From positions 1 to 47,939 of the forward strand of contig NZ_JANQVQ010000140.1 in assembly GCF_030730205.1 (NCBI RefSeq): a stretch of DNA of 47,939 nucleotides, given 5' to 3'. Numbering within the stretch: position 1 is the first letter of the stretch; every line of letters begins with the position of its first letter. This document shows positions 2,412 to 18,938 of the stretch, piece by piece. The position numbers were made by a program, and so were the translations under genes. This DNA comes from Paraglaciecola sp. GTDB lineage: Bacteria > Pseudomonadota > Gammaproteobacteria > Enterobacterales > Alteromonadaceae. The notes under the pieces were generated by a model that saw nothing but the letters and a program-made list of their open reading frames with translations, was not told the DNA's origin and did not search any database.

Positions 2412-4847
2412 ATGGCATGGCTGCATAACTTGTTGCTGGTTCTGATTTCAATACCGGTAAAATGGCTGGTTAAAGCCAACACGATCCCCTCGGATTTAGC
2501 CCAAGAGCTTGGTATTGATCCGACCAAGCCTATTCTTTATTTATTACGCAGCCACTCAGCTACCGATCAAATTGCCCTGAGTATGTCCGCTGAATCGCTT
2601 AATTTGCCCAAGCCCAATAGCCGTATCACCATCGCAGGTGAGCAGCATCGATCCTGTTTATTTTTACTCGAACCAAAATCAGTATTAACGCGAAAAGTAA
2701 AAAACACCGATATTGCCCAACAATTTACCCATTTATTTCAACTTCATCGCCTCGATCCCGCCCTTGATATCCAAATCGTACCTGTTTCAATCTTTTGGGG
2801 TAGAGCACCAGGTAAAAAGTTTTCAGGTTGGTCAGACGTTATTGCTAATCAAGTATCGCCCAGTTGGTTACGCAAATTTTTTATTGTGTTGTTTTTAGGC
2901 CGAGACAACTTTGTTTGTTACAGCAAAGCCGTTTCATCCCGATCGATGGCCGATTTACCGGGCACAGATGCCGAACTCGCCCACAAGCTTATTCGCTTGG
3001 CTGGTACGCACTTTCATCGCAGGCGCCAAGGCATTACCGGTCCTTATCTGCTTGAAAAACAAGAACTGTACAACACCGTACTCGGTTCGCAGTCAGTGCG
3101 TTCGGCCATTAATGATGAAGCCACCAGTAAAAATATCACTTATCAAAGCGCGCAGACCCAAGCAAAAAAATATATCGATGAGATAGCCGGTGATTACCGA
3201 GAAGGCTTGATTCGCTTAGGCGATCGAGTACTGACAAAAATTTGGAATAAAATTTATAACGGCATAGAAGTCCAACACGCACAAAAAGTACGTACCTTAG
3301 CGCAAAATGGCCACGAGATTATCTATGTGCCTTGCCATCGTAGTCATATGGATTATTTGTTGCTGACCTATGTCATCTATCACGAAGGCCTTGTTACCCC
3401 ACATATTGCAGCAGGCATTAACCTTAACTTCTGGCCAATAGGCGGAGTACTGCGTAAAGCCGGGGCGTTTTTTTTGCGCCGCAGTTTTGCTGGCAACAAA
3501 TTGTATACTGCGGTATTTCGCGAATACCTTGAGTTGCTATTTAACAAAGGCTATTCGGTTAAGTATTATCCCGAAGGCGGGCGCAGTCGCACCGGGCGTT
3601 TATTGCCACCTAAAACAGGTATGCTCGCCATGACCTTACAAGGGCTCATAAAAGGGATTAATCGACCCGTTAGTATCGTACCTGTGTATATTGGTTACGA
3701 ACATGTCATGGAAGTCTCAAGCTATTTGCAAGAGCTCACGGGCTCTGCCAAAAAGAAAGAGTCTATCTTTCACATTTTTTCTGCTATCCGTAAATTAAAA
3801 AACTATGGCTACGGTTATCTCAATTTTGGCGACCCAATTAACCTCAGCAATTACTTAGATAAAAACGTGACCAACTGGCGAGAACTGCAACAAGCTGAGC
3901 CCGATAAAAAACCGCAGTGGTTGACTCCGGTGGTAAACGATTTGGCTAATAATGTGATGGAGCGCATCAACCAAGCTGCAGCCATTAGCGGCATGTCATT
4001 GTGTGCAATTTGTTTATTGTCTGCCAAAAAACACGCCATGACAGAAGATGAGTTACTGCTTGCCATCGAACATCTACTTACTCTGTTGGCGAAGTCGCCC
4101 TACAGCGAGGTGTCTACCATTCCAGATATCAGTGCCAAACAGCTGTTGGAAAACACCCTGAAGCTGAAAAAATTTGAAGTCAGTGAAGATACCTTTGGGC
4201 GCATCATTAGCCTAAGGGATAAAAACGCAGTACCGCTGACGTATTATCGCAACAACATTCTGCATTTATTCGCGATGCCGGGCTTAATCACCGCCATAAT
4301 TTTTGCACGCCACAGTATCAGCCGCAGCGATATAAAGCAGCTCATTGCTAAGCTCTACCCATTGTTGCAACGCGAATTATTTATTTATATGTCTCTTGAA
4401 CACGCCATCGACTATTCAGATTCACTTATTGAAAGCATGTTAGATATGGGCTTGCTCAGCAACCTGGATGACCAACTGACTCCACCAGCACCAAGTAGTA
4501 AGGCCTATTATTCAGCGTGGTTACTCAATCGCAGTATTCAAGAAACCTTACATCGTTACGCCGTGGTACTCACCTTGCTTGAGCGTGAGGGTTCGATGAG
4601 CCGCGCCGTGTTAGAAAAACGCAGCCAGCAATTTGCTCAGCGTTTATCCTCGTTACATGGCATAAGCTCACCGGAGTTTTTTGATAAAAATGTACTGGGT
4701 ACCTTTATCAATGCCTTAAAAGAAAATCACCTTGTACAAAGCAACGAAGAAGGCCAATTGCAACATTGTGATGTTAGCGAGGCCTTGCGATTAGACGTGA
4801 TCAGCTTAATTTCACCTGAAATTGCGCAGCGTATTCAACAAATATAA
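2412..4847 (+). CDS. plsB: Glycerol-3-phosphate 1-O-acyltransferase PlsB
   Basis: PlsB transfers an acyl chain from acyl-ACP or acyl-CoA to sn-1 of glycerol-3-phosphate, the first step of phospholipid synthesis at the inner membrane. The 811-residue length is close to the E. coli enzyme (about 807). The acyltransferase HX4D motif is at His309-Asp314 (HRSHMD), nearly the E. coli position, followed by the glycerol-3-phosphate-binding block GGRSRTGR. The N-terminus (WLHNLLL...IPVKWLVKANTIP) aligns with E. coli PlsB and supports this start, which has AAGGA upstream. The gene ends six bases before the convergent cation exporter, with no obvious terminator between them. Confidence 0.95.
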   Translation: MAWLHNLLLVLISIPVKWLVKANTIPSDLAQELGIDPTKPILYLLRSHSATDQIALSMSAESLNLPKPNSRITIAGEQHRSCLFLLEPKSVLTRKVKNTDIAQQFTHLFQLHRLDPALDIQIVPVSIFWGRAPGKKFSGWSDVIANQVSPSWLRKFFIVLFLGRDNFVCYSKAVSSRSMADLPGTDAELAHKLIRLAGTHFHRRRQGITGPYLLEKQELYNTVLGSQSVRSAINDEATSKNITYQSAQTQAKKYIDEIAGDYREGLIRLGDRVLTKIWNKIYNGIEVQHAQKVRTLAQNGHEIIYVPCHRSHMDYLLLTYVIYHEGLVTPHIAAGINLNFWPIGGVLRKAGAFFLRRSFAGNKLYTAVFREYLELLFNKGYSVKYYPEGGRSRTGRLLPPKTGMLAMTLQGLIKGINRPVSIVPVYIGYEHVMEVSSYLQELTGSAKKKESIFHIFSAIRKLKNYGYGYLNFGDPINLSNYLDKNVTNWRELQQAEPDKKPQWLTPVVNDLANNVMERINQAAAISGMSLCAICLLSAKKHAMTEDELLLAIEHLLTLLAKSPYSEVSTIPDISAKQLLENTLKLKKFEVSEDTFGRIISLRDKNAVPLTYYRNNILHLFAMPGLITAIIFARHSISRSDIKQLIAKLYPLLQRELFIYMSLEHAIDYSDSLIESMLDMGLLSNLDDQLTPPAPSSKAYYSAWLLNRSIQETLHRYAVVLTLLEREGSMSRAVLEKRSQQFAQRLSSLHGISSPEFFDKNVLGTFINALKENHLVQSNEEGQLQHCDVSEALRLDVISLISPEIAQRIQQI

Positions 4848-4853
4848 TGCATA

Positions 4854-5837
4854 TCAATGGGCTTGCGTGCAGTGCTGAACTTCAATCGTTACATGCACCA
4901 GCCCCAGATCATCAGGTAATTGCGACTTGTATTCGGTAGCGGTTTTCAGTTGATGAGTCACCACCGATATCGCCGCAGAATAAATATTGGGGCCGATAGA
5001 CCAAACATGTAAGTCGGTGATCTGGCTGTCGCCGTCTTCTTCTATAAAAGATGTCACTTGCTGCGTAAGCGGTTTAGCCGCTTGATGATCTAGGAGTACA
5101 TTACTGGTTTCTTTTAATAAACCAATTGACCAACGTGCTACCAGCAAACCACCCACTATCCCCATAATAGGGTCCATCCATACCCAACCAAAGTATTTAG
5201 CAGCAAGCAGTGCCACAATCGCTAACACCGAGGTCAGCGCATCGGCTATTACATGCAGGTAAGCAGATTTAAGATTGTGATCATGGGAGTGTGCCACTGA
5301 AGTTGGTTTATGAGCATGGCCATGCCTGTGATGTTCCCCATGGTCATCAGAGTGAGAGTGACCGTGGTGATGATCATGTTCATCACCGCCCAATATAAAT
5401 ACGCAGATACCGTTAACCACTAAACCGGCAATGGCCACCAATATGGCTTGATTAAACACAATCTCTACCGGGTTGAGTAAACGATGCACACTCTCAACCG
5501 CCATAAACACCGCAAACAAACCAAGTAAAATCGCCCCTGAATAACCACCCAAGGCATTCACTTTGCCTGTGCCAAAACTAAATTTTCGATTTTTAGCATT
5601 GCGCCGCGCATAAATATAAGCAAATACCGTAATAGTTAGGGCTACCGCATGTGAGCCCATATGCAAACCATCTGCCAGCAAGGCCATAGAGCCAAATACA
5701 ATGCCGCCGATAATTTCTACCAACATCATTACCAAGGTAATCGCAATGACTAAAATGGAGCGATTTTCACCAGCGCGTTTTTTATCTTGCTCAAAAGTGT
5801 GATCGTGTTGTAAGTGCGAATGTTGTTCGGCTTGCAT
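4854..5837 (-). CDS. dmeF: Cation diffusion facilitator, DmeF-type Co/Ni(/Zn) exporter
   Basis: This 327-residue inner-membrane exporter belongs to the cation diffusion facilitator family, which exchanges divalent metal for protons. It has about six membrane segments. The metal-site residues are visible as ADGLHMGSH (Asp56, His59, His63) and HVIAD (His195, Asp199). A histidine-rich cytoplasmic loop at residues 153-187 and a histidine-rich N-terminus should gather metal. The whole sequence, especially FSFGTGKVN and the GWVWMDP block after HVIAD, resembles the DmeF subgroup (Co2+/Ni2+), though Zn2+ specificity cannot be excluded. No metal regulator of the RcnR or CsoR type is adjacent. Confidence 0.85.
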   Translation of the reverse strand: MQAEQHSHLQHDHTFEQDKKRAGENRSILVIAITLVMMLVEIIGGIVFGSMALLADGLHMGSHAVALTITVFAYIYARRNAKNRKFSFGTGKVNALGGYSGAILLGLFAVFMAVESVHRLLNPVEIVFNQAILVAIAGLVVNGICVFILGGDEHDHHHGHSHSDDHGEHHRHGHAHKPTSVAHSHDHNLKSAYLHVIADALTSVLAIVALLAAKYFGWVWMDPIMGIVGGLLVARWSIGLLKETSNVLLDHQAAKPLTQQVTSFIEEDGDSQITDLHVWSIGPNIYSAAISVVTHQLKTATEYKSQLPDDLGLVHVTIEVQHCTQAH

Positions 5838-5998
5838 AGTAAATTCGTGTCAGGCTGTCATACCTGCCACCTTAATCGAGGCTCGAGTACGCGACAAGTT
5901 GCTACAGAAATTAAATGACTATTTAGCGTTTTGATAAAATCATTTCATCTGTAATTCTGCTAGAATCGTCAACAAATCCGTCAGTCTTTTTTCGTCCT

Positions 5999-7444
5999 AT
6001 GTCTCTTGTTACTCTCGCACAATACCAATGCATCTTTGCTGAACATTTCACATTACACATCAAGTACCTCACGATTAAGGCCTTACAACATACGGTTATC
6101 TTAGGTGCCAATGGCAGCGGCAAATCAGCCTTAGCGGCATGTCTTGCTGGGCAGGGCGAATATGTCAGTGGCGAACGAGCAGTGAACGCACCTTATGCGT
6201 GGGTGTCAGTTGAGCAACAACAGGCCTTGATCGCGGCTGAGCGCCAAAAAGACTGCAGCGATATACTCGATATCATCCCCATCCCCAGCACAGTAGAAGA
6301 AATCTTATTTGAAGGCCTTGATTTGCCATATCAAGATCCCGCTTTGCTTGAACATGTACTCTCACTGTTTTCACTCAATACCATGCTGAAAAGACCATTT
6401 CGCGCGCTTTCAACTGGAGAAACCCGCAAGTTGCTACTGGCCAAAGCCATACTCAGTAAAGCGCAGTTGTTGATACTCGATGAGCCGTGGGACGGTTTAG
6501 ATCAGCAAGCCTGCCATGAATTATCAGTCTTGTTTAATACCCTGGCCGAGTACACCACCTTGGTCTTTGTATTAAATCGACTAAGTGAAGTACCTAGGTA
6601 CTGCCAACAAGTGGTATTAATGCAGGCAGGTGAGATCCAGTGGCAATCATCGAGTAATAGTAGCTTAAGCGAAACCATTCGCCATATTGAACAAGTGCGG
6701 CACATGCAGCAAAGTGATTTGAGCTTACCCTCACGCGATGAAGAGCGTTTTGCCCCGCACCCACTTGATGCTTCTGCGCCCTTAGTCAAACTGACTCAGG
6801 TTAAAGTCAGTTATGGCGATCACATCGTTTTTCAAGGACTGAACTGGACGATTAGACCAAACCAACATTGGCAGATCACTGGCCCCAATGGTTCAGGCAA
6901 AACCTGTTTACTGAATTTAATTACCGGCGACCATCCCCAATGTTACGTAAATGACATTCACGTATTTGGTTTTAAACGTGGTAGTGGCGAGAGTATTTGG
7001 CAGATTAAACAATACATTGGCTACATGTCGAATGCCTTGCATTTAGACTATCGGGTTAATTGCTCGCTGTTACAGGTCATTTTGTCTGGCTTCTACGACA
7101 GCATCGGGTTATATCAAACCCCAAGTCCCAAACAAAAAGCGCTGGCACAGCAATGGTTAGCCTTGATGTCGCTCACTCATCTTGAAAACACCCCCTTTTT
7201 GCAACTGTCTTTTGGTGATCAACGCATGGCTTTAATCGCCCGCGCGATGGTAAAACATCCCGCGTTGCTGATCTTAGATGAACCCTGCAATGGCTTAGAT
7301 GATATTAATCGCATAAAAGTATTAGCCTTGATTGACTTACTCGCCCGCGAAGGCAACACGACATTACTGTACGTTAATCATCATCAAGAAGATGCAATAC
7401 CCAGTATTGAACATCATCTGTGTATGACCGACTTTCAGGCCTAA
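5999..7444 (+). CDS. modF: ModF-like protein with two fused ABC ATPase domains
   Basis: The 481-residue protein is a tandem of two ABC ATPase domains and has no membrane segment. The first domain has Walker A GANGSGKS (36-43), signature LSTGE and Walker B LLILDEPWDGLD. The second has GPNGSGKT (295-302), a looser signature LSFGD and LLILDEPCNGLD. Fused architecture and length match ModF/PhrA (photorepair protein) of enterobacteria. That protein is encoded with molybdate transporters in E. coli, but its biochemical role is poorly defined. No modABC gene is nearby; instead it is followed after six bases by a pseudouridine synthase, so the two are probably co-transcribed. Confidence 0.75.
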   Translation: MSLVTLAQYQCIFAEHFTLHIKYLTIKALQHTVILGANGSGKSALAACLAGQGEYVSGERAVNAPYAWVSVEQQQALIAAERQKDCSDILDIIPIPSTVEEILFEGLDLPYQDPALLEHVLSLFSLNTMLKRPFRALSTGETRKLLLAKAILSKAQLLILDEPWDGLDQQACHELSVLFNTLAEYTTLVFVLNRLSEVPRYCQQVVLMQAGEIQWQSSSNSSLSETIRHIEQVRHMQQSDLSLPSRDEERFAPHPLDASAPLVKLTQVKVSYGDHIVFQGLNWTIRPNQHWQITGPNGSGKTCLLNLITGDHPQCYVNDIHVFGFKRGSGESIWQIKQYIGYMSNALHLDYRVNCSLLQVILSGFYDSIGLYQTPSPKQKALAQQWLALMSLTHLENTPFLQLSFGDQRMALIARAMVKHPALLILDEPCNGLDDINRIKVLALIDLLAREGNTTLLYVNHHQEDAIPSIEHHLCMTDFQA

Positions 7445-7450
7445 TTTGTT

Positions 7451-9139
7451 ATGTCGCTTGAACCCACCTGTTTTATTAAATTTAGTCAGGCTATCGATGG
7501 CATCGCTTTGCCGGAGCGTTTTACGTTTCCATTTTATTATCAACCCCATCCACTGTGTATTATCGCCGCTGATGAGCTGCAACAACGACTCAGCGCACCG
7601 CAAACTTGGCAACATAACTTTGGATTAACTGACGATCCGAATAACATCATCGGCAAAATGTTTGGTGTGTTATTGGTTAACAATCAGCAAGGGGAATTGG
7701 GATACTTAGCTGCCTTCTCTGGTAAATTAGCCGAACAAAATCACATTGATGGCTTTGTACCACCGGTATTTGATTTGTTAGTACAAGATAATTTTTTTCT
7801 TACCCAGCAAGTGCATATCAATCAGCTCAATGAACAGATACACGCCCATGAAAATAATTCAGATTTAGTCTTATTAAAACACCAGTTGGCCGCGGCTAAA
7901 GCGGCTCGAGATGAGCACATCGCCACGCAGCGAGCAGATATGATAGTTCAGCGCCAAATGCGCAAAGCGCAGCGTATGGCAGGACAAAATGCGCTATCGA
8001 GCGAGGCCTTTGCAGCACTCCAGCACCAGCTTAATCAGCAAAGCATCAGCGATAAACTACAGCTTAAAGCCGTGACCTTAGAATGGGACGGGAAACTGGC
8101 TCACGCCCAAGCTAAATATGATGAGTTACACTTACCCCTCGTTGATCTTAAAAACCAGCGTAAACAAGCGTCGGCGGCGCTGCAACAACAGATATTTGCA
8201 CAATATCAATTTTTAAATGCGCAAGGTAAAAGCCTTAGTTTGCAAGAAATTTTTAGTCAAACCGCTTTGCGCACGCCGCCAGCCGGAGCAGGTGAGTGCG
8301 CTGCACCTAAGTTATTGCAATATGCCTTTAAACACCAAATGCAGCCTTTGGCGTTGGCGGAATTTTGGTGGGGCGCCTCACCTAAGTCTGAAATCAGGCA
8401 GCATAAACATCATTATCCCGCTTGTTTAGGCAAGTGCCAGCCCATACTAGCCCATATGTTAGAGGGCATGGCACTCGACCCCAATCCCATGTTAGTGAAT
8501 CAAGGCGAAGGAAAACACCTTGACCTGATCTACCAAGATGAAGACATGGTGATCATCAATAAACCCGCTGAGTTTTTATCGGTACCCGGCAAAGACGTGC
8601 ATGACTCAGTCTATGCCCGCATGAAAACCCAATATCCGCAGGCAACGGGGTCATTGATTGTGCACCGCTTAGATATGTCAACTTCTGGTTTAATGGTCAT
8701 TGCCCTTAATCCACAAGCACACAAATCGTTACAACGGCAATTTATTCAGCGCACAATTGAAAAATCCTACATCGCCTTGGTTACAGGAATAGTGCAACAG
8801 GATGATGGCGTGATTGAACTGCCCCTAAGAGGCGACTTATATGACAGGCCGCGGCAGCTCGTTTGTCAGGAGTACGGCAAACCGGCTTTGACCGAGTGGC
8901 AAGTGCTTAGCCGAGATCACGTTAGGCAACAAACCAAAGTCCGCTTAAAACCACATACCGGACGCACGCATCAATTGCGGGTACATTGCGCTCATCCCTT
9001 AGGTCTTAATATGCCTATTGTAGGCGATGATCTTTATGGCACTTTAGCTAATCGCCTACACTTGCATGCAGAGCAGTTAACCCTGAATCATCCCCTGAGC
9101 AACAAAACCATGTCATTTAATGTGGCAGCTGAATTTTAG
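7451..9139 (+). CDS. RluA-family RNA pseudouridine synthase with long N-terminal extension
   Basis: The last 200 residues or so are a typical RluA-type catalytic domain that converts uridine to pseudouridine in rRNA or tRNA. It has the motif HRLDMSTSG with catalytic Asp408 and downstream KPHTGRTHQLR. The protein is 562 residues, far longer than RluA itself (about 220). The first 350 residues contain a glutamine/alanine-rich, charged segment around 115-255 that looks like a coiled coil, and then a block with PPAGAGECAAPKLL. I infer a large-subunit or unknown RNA target, but cannot name it. The gene starts six bases after the ModF-like gene. Confidence 0.85.
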   Translation: MSLEPTCFIKFSQAIDGIALPERFTFPFYYQPHPLCIIAADELQQRLSAPQTWQHNFGLTDDPNNIIGKMFGVLLVNNQQGELGYLAAFSGKLAEQNHIDGFVPPVFDLLVQDNFFLTQQVHINQLNEQIHAHENNSDLVLLKHQLAAAKAARDEHIATQRADMIVQRQMRKAQRMAGQNALSSEAFAALQHQLNQQSISDKLQLKAVTLEWDGKLAHAQAKYDELHLPLVDLKNQRKQASAALQQQIFAQYQFLNAQGKSLSLQEIFSQTALRTPPAGAGECAAPKLLQYAFKHQMQPLALAEFWWGASPKSEIRQHKHHYPACLGKCQPILAHMLEGMALDPNPMLVNQGEGKHLDLIYQDEDMVIINKPAEFLSVPGKDVHDSVYARMKTQYPQATGSLIVHRLDMSTSGLMVIALNPQAHKSLQRQFIQRTIEKSYIALVTGIVQQDDGVIELPLRGDLYDRPRQLVCQEYGKPALTEWQVLSRDHVRQQTKVRLKPHTGRTHQLRVHCAHPLGLNMPIVGDDLYGTLANRLHLHAEQLTLNHPLSNKTMSFNVAAEF

Positions 9140-9163
9140 CGGTTGCTTACCCTAACAACAGAC

Positions 9164-9189
9164 AAAAAAACGGGCAGCTAATGCTGCCC
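9164..9189 (-). terminator. Rho-independent terminator of the propeller lipoprotein gene
   Basis: Read on the minus strand, GGGCAGC-ATTA-GCTGCCC forms a perfect 7-bp stem followed by G and seven Ts. It lies 27 bases after the lipoprotein stop codon. On the plus strand only a short T run follows, so it would be weak for the pseudouridine synthase gene. Confidence 0.8.
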
Positions 9190-9216
9190 ATTTACGAAAA
9201 TGATTGCGTAAACCCC

Positions 9217-11322
9217 TTATTCAGTGCGATAGAGGTAAGTCGGAATAATGGCAACTGACTCCGGCGCTGGGTAGGCAATACTGACGTCTGGACTGACATC
9301 ACCACCTGCACTAACTAAGATGTTGTCGAAACGCATGACTAATCCATTTGATTTCTCTGCTACGAATAGGTTTTTACCATCAAACATAATATCCACTGGA
9401 TTACCCAACATCGAATTAGCACCGGCAATATTCACTGCAACATCGGTTAAACCAGAGGCCGCTTTCGCCGCAGGTAATACGTACAGCTTGCCGTCAGTGG
9501 CATCTGCTGCACTGCCTACATCCGATAAAATCAATGAGTCACTCGCAGGATCATAATCAATACCATGAATATTAGTCGGTGCCGCTATCGCGACTCCTGA
9601 TACGGCTGGTGTAATTAAGCGATCTTCACCGCTAATAGTGGTGGTACCTGCAGCAATTTTAGCGCTCACTTGGTCGAATACCGCCACGGTGCCATTGGTT
9701 AGAGCGACAAACGCTTTGTCAGTCAAGGCATCATAATCCACATCCCAAGGGCGGGCAGAATCTGATGGAACCAAGCTTAGTAGTGGGCTTATGTCGCCAG
9801 CAGCACAACTTGAAAAGATTAAGATCCCTGGTGAGGTAGCATTATTCTCAGCTACAAAAATCAGGCCTTTTTCGGAAGACACATCTAATCCTTTTGGTGC
9901 GATTAAACCCGTGCTAGCACCTGCAATCATGCGGTCACGAGAAGGGGTGTAGCTTTCATCATCTCTAAGGGTTGCGACTCGGTTCGCAATAGCGATGCCG
10001 CCCATTGCTGTAGTTGTATCGTCAAAGGTAGTGTAGCTGTCACCTGCTAAATCGAAGGTCACGCTTTCGATGCTAATGCCATGGTCAAAACGAGTGAGCT
10101 GCGCATTTAGCGCTGAGCTAAAACGTCCTACCATACCCGTAGTGGCACTAGCTGAACTTGGGTTGCTGCTCACGGCAACACCTCGCAATGTGGTGTTTGC
10201 TTCCCAGGTATCTGATACATCTGAATAGGTCATTGAAGCAGACATTTCAACCAGAGACTCTGGCTTAGTGGCAGGAGTCACGAGAGAAGGAGCCACATCA
10301 CCGCTTGGTCCAGAAAATATGTTTGAAAAGACTAAAATAGCATCGTTTGATTTTTCAGCAACTCGTAAATCACTGCCAGACAAGACGATATCGACCGGGT
10401 TACCTAATAGGGTTGAAGCGCCAGAAATTGAGCGTTCTACCGTGACATTACCGTCAACACTAGAGGCGTTACCGATGACATAAATAGCTCCATCGCTGGC
10501 TGACGCCGCATCACCCACATCACTCAACACTAATTTATCCCTTGAGCGGTCATAAACAATACCGTGAATATTTACAGACATTGCCATTTGCGTTTCATCA
10601 CTCGGAGTGATGACCCGTGCAGGCATCGCCATAAAACCACCAGTAACATAGTCGTCGTAAACCGCTACCGTACCGTCAGTAAGAGCAACAAATAGACGGT
10701 CATTAATTTCGTCATAACTTAAATCCCATGGCTTCGCCGTTGTCATCGTTTCAGCAAGTGGGGCAACATTACCTGCGGCGGCCGAGCCAAATACACTGAT
10801 ACGCATACCATTAAAATCAGCAATCAAAATCAGTCCAGCACCTTGCACAACCTCAATACCTTTGGGGTTAGTCAGGCCTGTCGCTGCCCCAGTAATATCG
10901 CGATCAGTATTGGCTTGATACATTGCACCATCACTACGACTGGCTACATGACATAGGGTTCTCACACTGCCTAAACTGCTATCCCCTGCGTGAACCAAAT
11001 TAGATAAAGGATCTAAGTCGATACCTTCGTTGTTTGCAGAGCTTAGGGTTTTTAACAGGCCTGCGTTTTGGTCCACGACACTGACTGTTCCAGCATTGTC
11101 TGCCCCATTATTCGATATAAAGAAGGTTGCTGGCGAAAAAGACGGGCTGCCATTTGCGCCATCTTGGCCATTCATCCCATCTTGACCGTTCATGCCTGGT
11201 GCCCCCATATCGCCATCGTCACCATTACAAGCCGTTAGTGCAAATGCAATCGACACACCTAACAAAGTCCTTAAAAATGTTGCTGTAAGGGGCATAGACC
11301 CATGATTTTTAGTTGTTTTCAT
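9217..11322 (-). CDS. Surface lipoprotein with collagen-like tract and duplicated propeller-like body
   Basis: The 701-residue protein has a lipoprotein signal with lipobox LTAC (Cys32). It continues with a short collagen-like Gly-X-Y tract (about residues 34-58, GAPGMNGQDGMNGQDGANG). The rest is an internal duplication: each half carries, in order, NPKG/APKG, KPWDLSYD/RPWDVDYD, FVALT-GTVAV, NIHGI-YD, LVLSDVG/LILSDVG, LLGNPVDI and VAEKSN. These blocks resemble NHL or YVTN-type beta-propeller strands. The start has a strong GGAGAGGAAT. Its function is unknown; a cell-surface binding role is a guess. It is divergent from the tail sheath gene. Confidence 0.7.
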   Translation of the reverse strand: MKTTKNHGSMPLTATFLRTLLGVSIAFALTACNGDDGDMGAPGMNGQDGMNGQDGANGSPSFSPATFFISNNGADNAGTVSVVDQNAGLLKTLSSANNEGIDLDPLSNLVHAGDSSLGSVRTLCHVASRSDGAMYQANTDRDITGAATGLTNPKGIEVVQGAGLILIADFNGMRISVFGSAAAGNVAPLAETMTTAKPWDLSYDEINDRLFVALTDGTVAVYDDYVTGGFMAMPARVITPSDETQMAMSVNIHGIVYDRSRDKLVLSDVGDAASASDGAIYVIGNASSVDGNVTVERSISGASTLLGNPVDIVLSGSDLRVAEKSNDAILVFSNIFSGPSGDVAPSLVTPATKPESLVEMSASMTYSDVSDTWEANTTLRGVAVSSNPSSASATTGMVGRFSSALNAQLTRFDHGISIESVTFDLAGDSYTTFDDTTTAMGGIAIANRVATLRDDESYTPSRDRMIAGASTGLIAPKGLDVSSEKGLIFVAENNATSPGILIFSSCAAGDISPLLSLVPSDSARPWDVDYDALTDKAFVALTNGTVAVFDQVSAKIAAGTTTISGEDRLITPAVSGVAIAAPTNIHGIDYDPASDSLILSDVGSAADATDGKLYVLPAAKAASGLTDVAVNIAGANSMLGNPVDIMFDGKNLFVAEKSNGLVMRFDNILVSAGGDVSPDVSIAYPAPESVAIIPTYLYRTE

Positions 11323-11586
11323 TATTCCTCTCCAATTACCTAGTAAGTGAGTAGTACCAGCAGACGAACTGCACTAACGCTGCCTTTCAAAAAGCCAAAC
11401 GACTCAGGTAGGTGACTGGATGCAAAAAATGAAAATAAATTTAACAACCTTAAAAAGGTTGAAAAAAAATGGCTTTGTATGGCACTTAATTGACTATGAA
11501 CTAGGCTATATACACGGATTTATGATGGTTTTCGCAAACGAAAATTTACACGTTCAGCTGCTCATTCAGCTCAAAAGGATAGGACA

Positions 11587-13125
11587 ATGCCAGAATATTT
11601 AACGCCTGGGGTTTTCATCAACGAAACCCCTCGTTTGCCGCCACACATCGTTTCAGCTTCAAGTCATATTGCGATCTTTATTGGTTATACAGAGCGACAG
11701 AAATTAAACGGCCTTTCTCTTCTGAATATACCCACTAAAATCAACTCACTGCCTGAATTCGAACGCTTTTTTGGGGGTGATGCCCTCCACCAATTTAACA
11801 TCGATACCACGCAAGGGGCTCAGGTTCCTGATCTAACCCTAGCAAATAAGGGTTACAGCCTGAATCAATGCAGTCAAAATTTTTTACTGTATCGCAGCAT
11901 CGTCTTATTTTTTAACAATGGTGGTAGCACATGTTACGTGGTTTCTGTAGGTCACTATGGTGCAAACATAAGCCCAAACTCGCTGCTAAATGGATTAAAG
12001 GCAATCACTCACGATATACCAGCATCGATTGTGTTGATACCTGACGCGGTAGCCTTAGATAATCAAAATGACTGCACGGCAGTGCAACACGCCCTGCTCA
12101 GCCATTGCTCTCAAAAATCTGCTAAACGCTTTGCTATCGTAGATATTTATCAAGGCTATTTAGCATCAAATCGAGCCAATCAAAACGACTGTATCGATTC
12201 GTTTTGCCACAACATAGGCAGCCAAAATCTCAGTTATGCAGCCGCCTATTATCCTTGGATAAATACCAGCATAGTTGGCGCCAACGACCTTCATTTCACT
12301 GCTATTAAAGCTATAGCCAAGCTAAAAACATTGTTATCTGCGGAGCTAAATATACAGTATTCACAACGAGACAAAAAACAGCACATCATGCGGCAATACG
12401 TCCAAGGGATAATTGATATGTTGCCAGAAAACGGCCTTGACCCTCACAAACAAAAACAGAGCGCTCAAACTCAAAAAGCACATCAAATGCTACTTAGTGC
12501 TAGCCCATTTTATCAGGCGCTATTCACCACTATGGCTGAAAAACTGAGCCTTTTGCCGCCAAGTGGCGCGGTGTGTGGGGCTTATGTCTTCACTGACTTA
12601 AGCACAGGGGTATGGAAAGCTCCGGCCAATATTTCGCTAACCTCAGTTATTAGTCCATGCCAGTTGGTGAATAATCAACTTCAACAAGACATGACAGTCA
12701 CGCCGTCGGGTAAGTCAGTGAATGCTATCCGCAACTTTATCGGTCAGGGTGTGCTGATTTGGGGGGCGAGAACCCTTGCAGGTAATGACAATGAATGGCG
12801 CTATATCAATATCAGGCGCACCATGAATATGATCGAAAAATCTATTGAAGAGGCTTTAAAAGGCCTTGCACAAGAGCCTAATGATCACAACCTATGGACT
12901 ACTGCTCGTACCATGATAGACAACTACCTCATGCAACTTTGGCGGACAGGTGCTTTAGCAGGCGCCAAGCCTGACGAAGCTTATTTTGTTAGAGTAGGCA
13001 TCAATCAGACCATGACCTACACCGATATTCAAAAAGGTCACTTAATCGTTGAACTTGGCATCTCTATGCGCAAACCAGCTGAATTTACCTTACTTAAGAT
13101 CATCCAAACCGTATCAGCCAGTTAA
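11587..13125 (+). CDS. Phage/eCIS-type contractile tail sheath protein, solitary
   Basis: The 512-residue protein matches the tail sheath family (COG3497 type) from end to end. The N-terminus is YLTPGVFINE with the EFERFFGGD block at 57-65. A LFFNNGG block lies at 108-113, and LPPSGAVCGAY then GVWKAPAN at 323-348. The conserved C-terminal part has IWGARTLAGNDNEWRY (391-406), LWRTGALAGAKPDEAYFV (451-468) and a final KPAEFTLLKI. This resembles sheaths of extracellular contractile injection systems more than a Mu or P2 sheath. AAGGAT lies eight bases before the ATG. No tube, baseplate, spike, LysM or AAA ATPase gene flanks it, so it cannot build an injection machine from this locus alone. The frame is intact, arguing against simple decay. 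Confidence 0.88.
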   Translation: MPEYLTPGVFINETPRLPPHIVSASSHIAIFIGYTERQKLNGLSLLNIPTKINSLPEFERFFGGDALHQFNIDTTQGAQVPDLTLANKGYSLNQCSQNFLLYRSIVLFFNNGGSTCYVVSVGHYGANISPNSLLNGLKAITHDIPASIVLIPDAVALDNQNDCTAVQHALLSHCSQKSAKRFAIVDIYQGYLASNRANQNDCIDSFCHNIGSQNLSYAAAYYPWINTSIVGANDLHFTAIKAIAKLKTLLSAELNIQYSQRDKKQHIMRQYVQGIIDMLPENGLDPHKQKQSAQTQKAHQMLLSASPFYQALFTTMAEKLSLLPPSGAVCGAYVFTDLSTGVWKAPANISLTSVISPCQLVNNQLQQDMTVTPSGKSVNAIRNFIGQGVLIWGARTLAGNDNEWRYINIRRTMNMIEKSIEEALKGLAQEPNDHNLWTTARTMIDNYLMQLWRTGALAGAKPDEAYFVRVGINQTMTYTDIQKGHLIVELGISMRKPAEFTLLKIIQTVSAS

Positions 13126-13231
13126 GTAATGTTTAGGCGGCAATGCTTGCTATTTGAACTAAACCGCTAACGGCCTTGGTGGTTAAGTATCACCAATGCT
13201 AGCCTTAGGGTTTTATTCAGTCGGTTTGAGT

Positions 13232-14197
13232 ATGCGCCACATCCTTGCTATTTTTCTCAGTGTCTATGTATTTTCATTTTCAATTAGTGCAGAAAACATT
13301 CGCTATCATATGACTGTTGCACAAGATGGCAGCGGTGATTTCAGGTCTATTCAAGCTGCAATTGATGCTAGCAAAACGTTTCCTGATAAACCCATCACCA
13401 TTAATATTAAAAACGGCCTCTACCAAGAAAAAGTGCATGTCTATGAATGGAATCCTCGTGTAAACCTGATTGGCGAAAGTGTAGAGCGTACAATTATCAG
13501 CTTTGATGACCATTTCAACAAAATTGCCAAAGGCCGTAATAGCACCTTTCACACCGCCACATTACAAGTTGATGGCAATGACTTTCATGCGCAAAACCTG
13601 ACTATTCGCAATACAGCTGGGCCCGTGGGGCAGGCCATCGCTCTTGCTGTAACTGCAGACCGCGCAAGTTTTTACCAAACGCGTTTATTAGGCCATCAAG
13701 ATACGGTGTATGTCAGCGGTGAGGATACCCATCAATATTTTAAGGATTGCTACATAGAGGGCACCACTGACTTTATCTTTGGCAACGCCACAGCAGTATT
13801 TGATCACTGCGAAATAAAATCTCTGAGTAATTCTTTTATTACTGCGGCCTCGACGGTGGCGCATAATGACATCGGTTTGGTGTTTTTAAACTGCCGTTTA
13901 ACCGCTAAAGAGGGGGTAAACGAGGTGTATTTAGGTCGCCCTTGGCGCACCTTTGCTAAAACAGTATTCATAAACTCTGATTTTGGTTCGCATATCACGC
14001 CTAAAGGCTGGGATGATTGGAGCAATCAAGCCGCTCATCGTAATAGCTACTACGCAGAATTTAATAATCATGGCCCAGGCGCAAACCCCAAAGGTCGGGT
14101 GAATTGGGCACATCAATTAACGCGTGAACAAGCCAAGCAATATCAATTGTCGACTCTACTGGCCTCACCTCATCATCCAAGTTGGTATAAAAAATAG
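13232..14197 (+). CDS. Pectinesterase (CE8), secreted
   Basis: Pectinesterase removes methyl esters from polygalacturonan, yielding pectate and methanol. I start at the ATG at 13232, which begins a clear signal peptide (MRHIL...SISA); an in-frame start 36 bases upstream would add a poor N-terminus. Family motifs are all present, numbered from this start: QDGSGDF (31-37), VGQAIAL with Gln134, HQDTVY with Asp157, TDFIFGNA with the likely nucleophile Asp180, and LGRPWR with Arg236 and Trp238. The length of 321 residues is normal. No pectate lyase or polygalacturonase is next to it. It follows the sheath gene on the same strand, 106 bases away. Confidence 0.92.
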   Translation: MRHILAIFLSVYVFSFSISAENIRYHMTVAQDGSGDFRSIQAAIDASKTFPDKPITINIKNGLYQEKVHVYEWNPRVNLIGESVERTIISFDDHFNKIAKGRNSTFHTATLQVDGNDFHAQNLTIRNTAGPVGQAIALAVTADRASFYQTRLLGHQDTVYVSGEDTHQYFKDCYIEGTTDFIFGNATAVFDHCEIKSLSNSFITAASTVAHNDIGLVFLNCRLTAKEGVNEVYLGRPWRTFAKTVFINSDFGSHITPKGWDDWSNQAAHRNSYYAEFNNHGPGANPKGRVNWAHQLTREQAKQYQLSTLLASPHHPSWYKK

Positions 14198-14485
14198 CCG
14201 TGCTTGGATAACGTTTACAAATCTAAGCTACTCGAAACTTGCTAATCTTGTTTGCTGCAGTTTCATTATTAATAGCCCAGATTGACGAATTAAAAGCTCA
14301 AGACTCCCACTCAATTATTAGCAATATTTAGATAGACTAACGAGGTAGTTTAGCTACTATTAAGCAGTACTTAGCGCTTTAAAAGTGAGTATTGACTGGT
14401 TAGGTGCAAGATAAAAAGCCTAGATCTGGAGTTTGTTATTCTTGGCAAAATAACGTGAGATACTAACTAAATGAGGTGAGTTTGC

Positions 14486-15616
14486 TTGAAAATTTTTCAA
14501 TCTGTATATCAAAATCAACACTGGCATTCACCCTTGCCACAAAGCGCTAAAGCCCAGTGGTTGCTGGCTTTCGGTGATCATAATGCCATGTCATCTGATG
14601 ACTTTCGCCAAGAGTTAAAAAGCGCTTTCCCTCAGGCGCAAATTATTGGCTGTACAACAAGTGGAGAAATCCAAGGCAACCTTATTTTTGACAACAGCAT
14701 TTGCTTAACCGCAGTAGAATTTTCTAGTTCAAACATACACGTGGTTAGTGACGCGATTGGGAACTACAAAAATTCCGATGATCTTATTAGCCACTTACTC
14801 TGCCAATTACCCGATGACGGGCTAAAGCATGTTTTTATTATTAGTGATGGTCAGTTAGTTAATGGTAGCGAATTAGTCGATGGTTTGCAGCGTCATTTAC
14901 CTGAAGGCGTTACCGCAACAGGCGGATTAGCTGGTGACGGTGACAAATTTGAACAAACTACCGTGTGGCATAACGATAGAGTTGAAAACGGTTTAGTTGT
15001 AGTGGCTGGGTTCTACGGTGACAACCTAAACATAGGGCATGGCAACTTAGGTGGCTGGCATCCCTTCGGTCCTAAACGCATCATAACGAAGTCACAAGCC
15101 AATGTACTGTTGGAGATAGACAATCAACCCGCTTTAGATTTATACAAAAACTTTTTAGGTGAATTTGCTGACGGTTTACCCGCCTCAGCCTTACTTTATC
15201 CTTTAGCACTGCAATTAGAGGGAGAGTCAGAGCAACTTGTTCGCACTATTCTATCGATCGACGAAGAAAGCAAAAGCATGGTTTTTGCTGGCAATATGCC
15301 AGAGGGCTCAAGCTGTCAATTAATGCAATCTAATTATGAAGACTTAATCGATGGCGCTCAAATGGCCGCCAAGCAAGCGTTATCGTCAAACGAACAAATT
15401 CATCCAGAACTCGCCATCCTCATTAGCTGCGTTGGACGACGATTGGTTCTGGGCCAGCGAGTGGAAGAGGAGTTGGAGATTATTGAAGACACCTTTCCTT
15501 CAAATTGCGCTTTTAGCGGGTTTTATTCTTACGGAGAAATATCGCCTATTAAGGCGATTGGCCGCTGTGGTTTGCACAATCAGACCATGACTATCACGCT
15601 TTTTTCAGAAAACTAA
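14486..15616 (+). CDS. FIST-domain sensor protein, NosP-like
   Basis: The 376-residue protein is a FIST_N plus FIST_C protein. Hallmarks are GCTTSGEI near residues 55-62, GGLAGDGDKF around 147-156, GGWHPFGP near 190-197, LPASALL, RVEEELE and the closing FYSYGEISP with a C-terminal LHNQTMTITLFSE. Proteins of this shape include NosP, a haem protein that senses nitric oxide and is often encoded beside kinases or c-di-GMP enzymes; haem binding here is not shown by sequence alone. The start is TTG at 14486 behind GAGGTGAG, since the upstream in-frame ATG at 14471 runs into TGA two codons later. It is the first gene of a three-gene operon and ends four bases before the next gene. Confidence 0.85.
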   Translation: MKIFQSVYQNQHWHSPLPQSAKAQWLLAFGDHNAMSSDDFRQELKSAFPQAQIIGCTTSGEIQGNLIFDNSICLTAVEFSSSNIHVVSDAIGNYKNSDDLISHLLCQLPDDGLKHVFIISDGQLVNGSELVDGLQRHLPEGVTATGGLAGDGDKFEQTTVWHNDRVENGLVVVAGFYGDNLNIGHGNLGGWHPFGPKRIITKSQANVLLEIDNQPALDLYKNFLGEFADGLPASALLYPLALQLEGESEQLVRTILSIDEESKSMVFAGNMPEGSSCQLMQSNYEDLIDGAQMAAKQALSSNEQIHPELAILISCVGRRLVLGQRVEEELEIIEDTFPSNCAFSGFYSYGEISPIKAIGRCGLHNQTMTITLFSEN

Positions 15617-15619
15617 GCT

Positions 15620-17509
15620 ATGCATAAATTGTTACAGCGACAACTTAAGCGCGCACTAAAAGATGAGGCATTTGAAACAGAAAATAATGTTTTGCTGCAA
15701 TCCATATCCGATGCCTATAGTCAAAACGAACAAACCCTCAAAATGCTTGAGCGCTCATTATTTTTGACCTCAAATGAGCTAAATGAACGCAATGAAACCC
15801 TAAAAAACCAACTTGCGTCGATGGAACACGTGCAAGCTCAACTCAAACACTCACTCGGTTTATTGCAAGCCACCTTTGATTCAACTGGCGAAATAGTCTT
15901 AGTGTATGATTTAGAAGGAGAGTTGATTTCGTTTAACAGTATGGGTAAGGCCTTTTTTAACGACATTAATTTGACAGAAGTCACCACCTGGAAAGCCTTT
16001 TTAGATTATTTGCAAGACAGAGATCAGCTCTTATTACTGGTAGAAGAACTCAAAGAAGACCCGTTAAAAGACTTATCAGGCACCCTAGCAATGCGTGATA
16101 CACGATGTTTTAGTTTTCGCTCTTTACCCCAAATTCAAGAAGGGAAACTCACTGGCCGTGTATGGTGCTTTCATGACGTTACGCTGCAAAAACAACACGA
16201 AGCCACCATCCAGTATCAAGCTTATCACGACAGCTTAACTGGCTTACCTAATCGTGCCCTACTACTTGATCGGATTAAACATTCCCTCGCGATTGCTAAA
16301 AGAGAGAAAAATAAATTAGCGATATTGTTTCTTGATCTCGACAATTTTAAAAAGGTTAACGATAGCGAAGGTCATGAAGCAGGCGATAAATTGTTGCAAG
16401 AAGTTGTGCGGCGACTGCAAACGAGACTAAGAGAGCAAGATACACTCTCGCGCCAGGGCGGCGACGAGTTTGTTATTTTACTCGAAAACATCCAGTCCGA
16501 AAACGCCGTGACCTCCATCTGCCAAGATATCCTAGCCTTGTTAAAAATGCCTTTTGATATTGCTACACGCCAGCACTACGTCACTGCCAGTATTGGTATC
16601 GCCGTCTACCCAAGCGATGACGATAACGCATCGGCCCTGATTCGAAAGGCTGACTTAGCCATGTACCAATCAAAAGCAGCCGGAAAAAATGGCCTGCATT
16701 TTTACAGCCACGAAGTTGAAAGTAATGCACTGCAACAGCTAGCCATCGAACAAGCCTTACGCAAGGCTATCAGCAACGGCGAACTGCACTTGGAATACCA
16801 ACCCAAGGTAGATTTAGCGAGTATGCAAATAAGTAGTCTTGAGGCCCTGTGCAGATGGCAACGGCCAAATGGCGACCGAGTATCTCCTGATGTTTTTATT
16901 GCGATAGCAGAGCAGACGGGCTTAATTACTGACATCGGCCAAATGGTGATTACAAAAACTTGTCAGCAAATTGCTAAATGGAATCAATTGGATATTTGTA
17001 AGACGACAGTGTCGATAAATTTAAGCAGCTTAGAGTTTCAAAGCGAAATACTCATTAAGCATCTTATCGACAGCCTAGAACGTTTTAATATTGAGGGTAG
17101 CCAGCTCATTATTGAGTTGACCGAGTCTATTTTTATGGAAGACAAAGACAGTATTAAAGAGACGATGCTGATGTTAAATAAGCTTGGCATTACCTTCGCT
17201 TTAGATGACTTTGGTAAGGGTTACTCTTCCTTTAGCTACTTACAGTTTTTACCGCTGCATTATTTAAAAGTCGACAAGGCGTTTTTACAAGACATTCAGT
17301 CCAATGCGCAATCATCAACTATCGCTAAAACCATTATTGATATTGGTCATAATTTGGGATTAAGTGTTATTGCAGAAGGAATTGAAGACCAGTTTATGTT
17401 GGACTATGTGACGGCTCATAAATGTAACATCGGCCAGGGGTTTTTCTTACACAAGCCGATGATGCCAGAAGCGGTAACGCCACTTTTACCTAAGCTACTC
17501 AATGAATGA
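15620..17509 (+). CDS. PAS-GGDEF-EAL c-di-GMP synthase/phosphodiesterase
   Basis: The 629-residue cytoplasmic protein has a heptad-rich coiled coil (about 1-80), a PAS-like sensor region (about 80-190), a GGDEF domain (about 195-365) and an EAL domain (about 375-625). GGDEF is intact at 280-284 with an RxxD inhibitory site (Arg271, Asp274). The EAL domain keeps EAL (408-410), the INLS asparagine, ELTES, LDDFGKG, LKVDK, AEGIE and the final GQGF glutamine, so both cyclase and phosphodiesterase activity are possible. No membrane segment is visible. It lies between the FIST gene and the BLUF gene, which suggests these two provide its inputs. Confidence 0.93.
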   Translation: MHKLLQRQLKRALKDEAFETENNVLLQSISDAYSQNEQTLKMLERSLFLTSNELNERNETLKNQLASMEHVQAQLKHSLGLLQATFDSTGEIVLVYDLEGELISFNSMGKAFFNDINLTEVTTWKAFLDYLQDRDQLLLLVEELKEDPLKDLSGTLAMRDTRCFSFRSLPQIQEGKLTGRVWCFHDVTLQKQHEATIQYQAYHDSLTGLPNRALLLDRIKHSLAIAKREKNKLAILFLDLDNFKKVNDSEGHEAGDKLLQEVVRRLQTRLREQDTLSRQGGDEFVILLENIQSENAVTSICQDILALLKMPFDIATRQHYVTASIGIAVYPSDDDNASALIRKADLAMYQSKAAGKNGLHFYSHEVESNALQQLAIEQALRKAISNGELHLEYQPKVDLASMQISSLEALCRWQRPNGDRVSPDVFIAIAEQTGLITDIGQMVITKTCQQIAKWNQLDICKTTVSINLSSLEFQSEILIKHLIDSLERFNIEGSQLIIELTESIFMEDKDSIKETMLMLNKLGITFALDDFGKGYSSFSYLQFLPLHYLKVDKAFLQDIQSNAQSSTIAKTIIDIGHNLGLSVIAEGIEDQFMLDYVTAHKCNIGQGFFLHKPMMPEAVTPLLPKLLNE

Positions 17510-17520
17510 GGTGATATTTT

Positions 17521-17973
17521 ATGAATAAGCATGAATCAACAGCATCATTAGTTGAATTAGTGTATGTCAGTGTCGCCAGTGTCGACTTTACTCACCAAGA
17601 TCTTATTGAAATCCTCAAAATCGCGCGAAAAAATAATTACTTAAACGATATTTCTGGTTTGCTGCTATACAACAATAAAGGCAATTTTATTCAAGCCATA
17701 GAAGGCCCTGAAAAAGCGATTAATCTATTGTTCGACAAAATCAAACAAGACCAACGCCATGACCAAGTATATCAGTTAGCGTATCGACCAATCAGCAAAC
17801 GCTGCTTTGCTGATTGGCAAATGGGATTTAAATTACTCGATGATGTGCCTATGCCCGAGGTGCAAGGCTTCTCAGAATTCATGCACCAGGATGCAAATAT
17901 TAATCACTTTGTTGAACATAAAAACTTTGCCTTAGAATTACTCGATTACTTTAGAAAAACCAACACTAATTAG
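17521..17973 (+). CDS. Short BLUF-domain blue-light photoreceptor
   Basis: The 150-residue protein is a single BLUF domain with a short helical tail, which binds FAD and senses blue light. The flavin-site residues are in place: Tyr15 (LVYVS), Asn39 (ARKNN), Gln58 (FIQAIEG), and Trp99 with Met101 (DWQMGF), which correspond to the Tyr21, Asn45, Gln63, Trp104 and Met106 of AppA. No output domain is attached, so it must act on a partner. A GAGGTGA ribosome site overlaps the stop of the GGDEF-EAL gene 11 bases upstream, so the three genes are almost certainly one operon. PapB, a short BLUF protein acting on the phosphodiesterase PapA, is a precedent. Confidence 0.93.
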   Translation: MNKHESTASLVELVYVSVASVDFTHQDLIEILKIARKNNYLNDISGLLLYNNKGNFIQAIEGPEKAINLLFDKIKQDQRHDQVYQLAYRPISKRCFADWQMGFKLLDDVPMPEVQGFSEFMHQDANINHFVEHKNFALELLDYFRKTNTN

Positions 17974-17994
17974 GCCATCCAGCTAATCGAGTAA

Positions 17995-18915
17995 CTACTC
18001 ACCGAAGATTGACCATCCGGTCTTTTGCGCCAATATCTCAAGGGCATGAGTGCCTAACTTACTGTTGCCAATTGCATCAAGTCCAGGCGACCACACCGCT
18101 ATTGATGCTTTACCCGGTGCAATAACCAATATACCACCGCCCACGCCACTTTTACCCGGTAAACCCACTCTAAATGCAAACTCACCCGAACCATCATAAT
18201 GACCGCACATCAACATCAATGAGTTGATGCGCTTCGCACGATTGGGTGACACAACGGCATAACCCGTATGTGGATTGATGCCATTATTGGCTAAAAACAA
18301 ACCCGCTGTGGCAAGTTGCTGAGTATTCATGGCGATAGAGCAATGATGAAAATACGTGCCGAGCACCGCATCAACTGGGTTTTTAAAATGACCGAAAGAC
18401 GCCATAAAATGTGCTAAAGAGGCGTTTCGGTCACCGGTTTCTAACTCTGAGCGCGCCACTTTTTCATCAATGGCAATACTGTCATCATTCGCTAAAAAAC
18501 GCACAAACTGTATAATTTCAGCCAAGGCTTCTTTGGGTTGATGGCCCTGCATAATGGCATCAGCAATCGCGATGGCGCCAGCGTTAATGAAAGGATTTCG
18601 GGGTTTACCGTGCTCGTGTTCCAGTTGCACAATAGAATTAAACGGGTCACCTGAGGGTTCACGACCAACGCGTTGCCAAACCCGCTCCCCTAGTTTGCCT
18701 AGTGCTAAGGTAAGAGTAAAAACTTTAGAAACACTTTGTATGGAGAATAGGGTGTGTGCGCAGCCCGCGTGATAAACCTCGCCATTTGTCAGGGCGATAC
18801 TAATGGCGAACTGGTCTGGGTTAACACTTGCAAGCTGCGGAATATAGGATGCGACAGTGCCCTTGTTAGGCACCAAAGCCATCTGCGCAGCGATATCATC
18901 TATAATAGTTTGCAC
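17995..18915 (-). CDS. glsA: Glutaminase A
   Basis: Glutaminase hydrolyses glutamine to glutamate and ammonia using a serine beta-lactamase-like fold. The S-x-x-K motif is seen in SIQSVSKVF (Ser61, Lys64 from this start), with [11 protein letters not shown] and [11 protein letters not shown] further on. About 306 residues is the usual length. I choose the GTG at 18915 because GGAG sits six bases before it; a TTG two codons upstream is too close to that site. It follows ilvA after a short gap on the same strand, so it may be the last gene of the ilvD-ilvA operon, where both glutaminase and threonine deaminase release ammonia. Confidence 0.93.
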
Positions 18916-18938
18916 AGACAACTCCGGATGACACTTAA

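Follow-up and report, generated by a model that had tools for sequence, protein, structure and literature searches.

In the portions of the two sources drawn on here, the described systems closest to the locus considered below are the NosP systems (NosP with NahK/NosK and NarR/NosR), in which a stand-alone FIST protein lies beside the protein that it is thought to control and the output concerns cyclic di-GMP (c-di-GMP) (PMC12570481, PMC8846402); CdpA of Vibrio cholerae, which carries FIST-FIST_C with EAL and is inhibited by haem (PMC8846402); the H-NOX pairs SwH-NOX/SwDGC and Hnox1/Lpg1057, in which a separate haem sensor acts on a c-di-GMP enzyme (PMC8846402); and PapB-PapA, a short BLUF protein with a solo EAL protein (PMC8846402). 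The locus is a run of three genes, for a FIST protein, a GGDEF-EAL enzyme and a BLUF protein, in a 47,939-nucleotide stretch of Paraglaciecola sp. (contig NZ_JANQVQ010000140.1; the whole stretch is hereafter the window). The probable reading of this locus is that the FIST protein and the enzyme constitute a module, with docking on an N-terminal segment of the enzyme, and that the BLUF gene was gained from a lineage often paired with chemoreceptors. The genes and the parts of the enzyme are as follows.

14486 to 15616, + strand: FIST-FIST_C sensor protein, 376 amino acids, TTG start (Pfam FIST and FIST_C)
15620 to 17509, + strand: c-di-GMP enzyme with N-terminal segment, PAS-like fold, GGDEF and EAL, 629 amino acids (Pfam, alignment, model, fold search, motifs)
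15620 to 15868, + strand: conserved segment at the N-terminus of the enzyme (roughly residues 1-83), proposed FIST docking site (hidden Markov model, HMM, and neighbourhood counts)
15893 to 16177, + strand: PAS-like fold of the enzyme, about residues 92-186 (AlphaFold secondary structure and structural alignment; without a Pfam PAS match)
16220 to 16690, + strand: GGDEF domain with GGDEF motif and RxxD I-site (Pfam, alignment, motifs)
16751 to 17458, + strand: EAL domain, metal and catalytic positions present, loop DDFGKGYSS (Pfam, alignment, motifs)
17521 to 17973, + strand: stand-alone BLUF protein, 150 amino acids, the sole BLUF match of the genome, grouping with chemoreceptor-linked BLUFs

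The open reading frames and Pfam domains confirm three intact genes on one strand, as tightly packed as a first-pass annotation of this DNA had described them, with gaps of 3 nucleotides between FIST and enzyme and 11 between enzyme and BLUF, the BLUF start having GAGGTGA a short way before it. A promoter and terminator scan returned sites no more frequently than in shuffled sequence. The FIST protein shares a C-terminal His-(x)-Asn motif with the NosP systems; however, its partner is the c-di-GMP enzyme itself, with no phosphorelay, and the protein falls far below the NosP cut-off. CdpA likewise feeds a FIST input to an EAL enzyme, but as one polypeptide where the window has two genes, whereas the H-NOX pairs use another sensor and have no light sensor. 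PapB-PapA resembles the trio in joining a short BLUF to an EAL protein, yet the enzyme of the window is no stand-alone EAL protein, being of PAS-like-GGDEF-EAL type with an N-terminal segment and lying beside a FIST gene. In a literature search that left most subscription journals outside its reach, no paper combined "FIST domain" with "BLUF domain", and no title dealt with BLUF-chemoreceptor pairs or with a trio of FIST, GGDEF-EAL and BLUF.

FIST-partner pairs and the N-terminal segment

Among 395 genomes of the family, the FIST subfamily of the window was delimited by an E value of 3.7e-62 or lower; the hit ranking after these, a FIST-GGDEF fusion, stands at 2e-32. The subfamily is present in 28 of these genomes, window included, and the gene next to it encodes a GGDEF-EAL enzyme in 17 (again counting the window) and a histidine kinase in 11, one of which (L070) is split over two frames. 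The HMM used to recognise the kinases had four kinases as input, of which three belong to the 11, and the three scanned with Pfam (L067, L074, L076) are hybrid histidine kinases. FIST with GGDEF-EAL is thus an old and widespread two-gene module in which the output of the partner varies; its gene order is kept across genera and phyla, so that the placing of FIST beside a c-di-GMP enzyme in the first-pass annotation holds well beyond this genome.

To our knowledge, little is known of how FIST proteins communicate with their partners. NosK, a kinase partner of NosP, is described in the part of the source drawn on as starting with some 130 residues in which no sensory domain is recognised (PMC12570481). 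Wherever the FIST subfamily occurs in the family (28 genomes), the adjoining partner gene carries a common N-terminal segment, full in the enzymes and partial in the kinases. With an HMM trained on the GGDEF-EAL partners alone, this segment was detected at 72 of the 80 database loci examined (11 GGDEF-EAL, 56 kinase and 5 with the segment alone), the 80 being the best of at least 585 confirmed FIST matches; three of the 72 (L104, L107 and L163) were also input to the HMM. When the segment alignment (A6) was searched against the 395 family genomes, 31 places were found in 30 genomes, and 28 of these adjoin the 28 FIST genes, although four of them (the window, L104, L107 and L163) are rows of A6 and match by construction. 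The three places lacking a neighbour of the FIST subfamily lie in genome G165 (5e-11), in G170 as its second place (2.7e-5) and in G254 (6e-4). The first of them (G165:C1:806170-806352) falls on an open frame of about 1113 amino acids in a genome without a FIST-subfamily match, where a FIST partner has perhaps been lost or has decayed. All FIST matches in plasmid records (31 records) are less than 60% identical, and in an Azospirillum plasmid region the gene after FIST encodes a kinase that carries the segment.

Because one FIST subfamily and a segment of about 85 residues occur together in nearly one-to-one fashion while kinase and c-di-GMP enzyme are swapped behind the segment, a concrete docking hypothesis can be framed: this unannotated segment is probably the site at which FIST docks. 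The presence of the segment before histidine kinases as well implies that the output is interchangeable. In the AlphaFold model of the enzyme, short helices precede a long helix spanning residues 23-87, the first 20 residues having a predicted local distance difference test (pLDDT) value of about 64.

The FIST sensor and the c-di-GMP enzyme

The FIST protein of the window matches Pfam PF08495 FIST (156.3 bits) and PF10442 FIST_C (124.8 bits), both above the gathering score, and is modelled by AlphaFold at pLDDT 95. The best solved match to this model is human FBXO22 (E 4e-11), followed weakly by Toblerone-fold hydrolases; no haem site was read from these fold matches. It could be argued that this protein is an ordinary NosP and that the pair is an ordinary nitric oxide (NO)-sensing NosP system, given the FIST fold and the association of NosP proteins with c-di-GMP pathways in the portions of the literature drawn on (PMC12570481, PMC8846402). 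When 12 rows of the FIST subfamily were compared with ten NosP-like proteins (three of them above the cut-off), Cys315 and Tyr349 were kept in all ten NosP-like proteins and Tyr220 and His364 in nine, and both groups carry a C-terminal His-(x)-Asn-Gln motif, reading H-N in the subfamily as against H-[IV]-N in the NosP-like proteins. His364, kept in all 53 rows of alignment A3 and in 22 of 23 rows of A1, is by conservation a candidate haem ligand. However, the window FIST reaches 72.5 bits on the NosP model (NCBIfam NF041558), whose cut-off is 450, and a NosP equivalog is accordingly rejected. The partner at the window is a GGDEF-EAL enzyme where a NosP partner would be a histidine kinase, although other members of the subfamily do adjoin kinases, and the N-terminus of the enzyme shows no clear homology to the N-termini of the kinases that adjoin NosP-like proteins. 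An ordinary NosP system is rather unlikely, and the module with its own proposed docking segment remains the preferred reading of the pair. The description of the protein as NosP-like in the first-pass annotation stands as regards fold and C-terminal motif, but not as regards the NosP cut-off, which is far missed; on the NosP model a FIST fusion of the same genome scores higher. That second FIST protein is a 668-amino-acid FIST-FIST_C-MCP fusion (L205, 2801-4807, - strand, i.e. G000:C68) with 114 bits to the NosP model. Class-wide, the NosP model matches in 60 of 369 genomes, in 3 of them above the cut-off. A separate locus (L197, 727-4713, - strand) has a NosP-like FIST gene followed by a protein of 1328 amino acids that joins kinase, GGDEF and EAL in one chain.

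As to the enzyme, Pfam finds GGDEF (174 bits) and EAL (224 bits) and no PAS domain. The AlphaFold model (mean pLDDT 86.5, predicted template modelling score 0.52) has, from about residue 92 to 186, a PAS-like succession of strands and helices, and Foldseek aligns the model over 547-558 columns with PAS-GGDEF-EAL structures of PA0861; the 5xgb chain of this protein ranks third (553 columns, root-mean-square deviation 29.5), the domain arrangement differing from that of the enzyme model. The features of a bifunctional GGDEF-EAL protein, namely the GGDEF motif, the RxxD I-site and the EAL metal and catalytic positions, are present, with functions that we take to be those usual for such residues. 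Loop 6 of the EAL domain (17207-17233) reads DDFGKGYSS, most relatives having Thr at the position of the Lys. The Lys occurs in 5 of 27 loop rows (the window, L051, L052, L054 and L103), all in otherwise complete EAL domains; the rows come from alignments A2 and A4, with the window counted once and L104, L107 and L163 repeating the loci of L053, L057 and L063. In active EAL phosphodiesterases this loop reads DFG[T/A]GYSS, a pattern from which the window enzyme departs, and phosphodiesterase activity is therefore not to be assumed. The Thr-to-Lys difference may possibly affect that activity. The earlier description of a PAS-GGDEF-EAL protein with both active sites intact is thus sustained by the GGDEF, I-site and EAL positions and by the PAS-like fold of the model, but is qualified by the missing Pfam PAS match and by the loop Lys.

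The BLUF gene and its relatives

The third gene encodes a short stand-alone BLUF domain, as had been stated: its 150 residues match Pfam BLUF at 97.1 bits, above the cut-off, and its Tyr, Asn, Gln, Trp and Met align with those of AppA (2iyg), presumably as residues of the flavin pocket. The trio itself is not conserved. The first-pass annotation had proposed that conservation of the gene order be checked and had named a lack of conserved co-occurrence as refuting its proposal. For the BLUF this is the outcome: six-frame translations of 112 FIST neighbourhoods (109 distinct, some cut by a contig end) hold no BLUF, the window holding one; the 112 comprise 32 from the family, 5 of them with weaker FIST relatives, and 80 from the database, three loci being in both. 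A conserved trio is thus rejected within the searched genomes, where the FIST-enzyme pair recurs and BLUF stands beside it only in the window; as far as searched, the trio is an addition in one genome and no conserved system. Besides the genome of the window, at least 17 genomes of the family carry both the FIST subfamily and, at some place, a BLUF (genome lists compared by eye). Class-wide, BLUF matches occur in 46 of 369 genomes, and none of the three class-wide places examined for it (L097-L099) has FIST beside BLUF.

Among the matches listed, the ten BLUFs nearest to that of the window are L083-L092, and in seven of them (L083, L084, L086-L090) a gene for a protein of 561-567 amino acids lies 0-119 nucleotides downstream on the same strand. 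These seven neighbours are mutually 45-60% identical, and the three that were scanned consist of HAMP and MCP signalling domains. On a megaplasmid of Vibrio sp. THAF191d (L219), a BLUF gene whose product is 43.9% identical to that of the window overlaps such a receptor gene, and the receptor-linked BLUFs as a whole (L083, L084, L086-L090, L219) are 39.7-44.1% identical to the window BLUF; all BLUF matches in plasmid records (172 records) fall below 60% identity. These pairs, from two bacterial families, are candidate blue-light taxis systems; their BLUFs are related to that of the window, whereas their partner is a HAMP-MCP protein in place of a c-di-GMP enzyme. In five of the loci (L083, L087-L090) the pair is preceded by a gene for a small exported-looking protein (155-166 amino acids, with the motif H-x-P-G-[IV]-F-[LV]-G, by eye). 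No chemoreceptor neighbour was found for L085, L091 and L092 among the nearest BLUFs, for ten further BLUF loci (L093-L102), or for 18 other BLUF loci of congeners, which had short flanks. The L094 BLUF has a GGDEF gene 120 nucleotides away on the opposite strand, and the congener BLUF of L011 adjoins an EAL gene. In a midpoint-rooted tree of 39 BLUFs, the window belongs to a group of 13 rows (96/96), whose other members are the seven receptor-linked rows, L085 and L091-L094. The analogy with PapB made in the first-pass annotation applies to the format of the protein, but its nearest relatives go with a chemoreceptor, and it is more distant ones that adjoin EAL (L011) and GGDEF (L094); the grouping with chemoreceptor-linked BLUFs is a further difference from the PapB-PapA pair.

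No ortholog of the receptor is present in the genome of the window, the best match (184 bits) covering residues 182-564 and leaving the N-terminal third uncovered, while the same search in 4 other genomes bearing the pair gives 450-557 bits. In this genome the BLUF would therefore need another target. It is possible that the enzyme is this target, such that FIST and BLUF both act on it and NO or haem and blue light are joined in one c-di-GMP decision, as the first-pass annotation had suggested. The position of the gene, 11 nucleotides past the enzyme stop on the same strand behind GAGGTGA, its being the only BLUF of the genome, and the pocket residues are consistent with this proposal, as are BlrP1 and PapB-PapA, in which, in the part of the source drawn on, BLUF controls EAL enzymes (PMC8846402), and the EAL and GGDEF genes beside L011 and L094. 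However, the trio recurs in no other FIST neighbourhood examined, the BLUF has kept a C-terminal part similar to those of its receptor-linked relatives (by eye), and the enzyme has no conspicuous insertion relative to relatives without a BLUF (alignment A2, by eye). Such joint control is plausible but less likely than not. Alternatively, the BLUF may be a mere neighbour, co-transcribed while its target lies elsewhere (another chemoreceptor, its own oligomer or none), or heading for loss. The same tree group contains BLUFs without a receptor neighbour (L085, L091-L094), no full-length receptor ortholog was found in the genomes of L085, L091, L092 and L093, and the G+C content of the BLUF gene (0.369) is below that of the enzyme (0.417) and of the FIST gene (0.434); but the reading frame and the pocket residues are intact, and the end branch of 0.53 does not exceed the tree median of 0.55. 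We place this alternative only slightly below an even chance, ahead of joint control of the enzyme.

Origin of the trio and a model for its action

The trio forms the right end of a stretch that separates two genes found near each other in some congeners:

4848 to 17994, no strand assigned: stretch of about 13 kb between a plsB-type gene (2412-4847) and a glutaminase gene (17995-18921)

Neither the FIST subfamily nor the segment occurs in any of the 21 congeners searched. The glutaminase has a match in 17 other congeners, for 12 of which the region was compared: the plsB-type gene adjoins the glutaminase directly in L209 and L212 and lies about 3 kb away in L211, eight regions have other genes next to the glutaminase, and in L207 the contig ends 544 nucleotides on. 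In the window, the two genes keep the relative orientation that they have in congeners, with about 13 kb, the trio included, between them. The simplest reading of these sequence comparisons is a gain in the species of the window, losses elsewhere being also possible. The stretch also encodes a phage tail-sheath-like protein (11587-13125; PHROG tail sheath E 2e-52, Pfam sheath C domain), around which the scanned neighbours include no tail genes except for a weak tail-protein match at 9217-11322.

Taken together, the preferred model proposes that FIST docks on the conserved N-terminal helical segment of the enzyme and that its ligand state would pass along the long helix, by way of the PAS-like domain, to GGDEF and EAL. 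Docked FIST would thereby set the balance of cyclase and phosphodiesterase, and c-di-GMP would change. Haem or NO may serve as the ligand, by analogy with FIST proteins characterised in the portions of the sources drawn on (PMC8846402, PMC12570481). The BLUF gene, having possibly moved from a chemoreceptor-paired lineage to a position behind the FIST-enzyme pair, would be co-expressed with it. Several observations weigh against this model. Eight of the 80 database loci (L108, L121, L125, L137, L146, L161, L173 and L181) lack the segment, some of them being cut by a contig end, and the 11 family kinases match it only in part (main match from residue 34-65 of the frame, at 24-36 bits, with the first motif mostly missing). 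For the segment and the N-terminal helices of the kinases that adjoin NosP-like proteins, hhalign gives a probability of 9.8% (E 0.0033). Weaker FIST relatives at L081 (kinase, 5127-7951) and L082 (GGDEF-EAL, 3561-6523) adjoin partners without the segment, so that FIST coupling need not use it and may be achieved in more than one way. On the BLUF side, the fork that joins the window to L088 and L092 is weak (83/67) in a tree that is midpoint-rooted, and the 13-row group includes five BLUFs without a receptor neighbour, one of them (L094) with its opposite-strand GGDEF gene 120 nucleotides away. Finally, docking, haem binding and c-di-GMP turnover are predictions drawn from sequences and models.

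A further and more tentative scenario is that of a recently assembled three-part switch, in which a chemoreceptor-type BLUF left without its receptor has been re-employed and the enzyme both docks FIST and answers blue light. If true, a light input would have been added to an existing gas- or haem-type switch through gene relocation. The history of the BLUF gene suggests how a photoreceptor might shift from chemotaxis to second-messenger control, and the coupling of FIST to the segment and the BLUF-chemoreceptor pairs provide broader leads beyond the trio itself.

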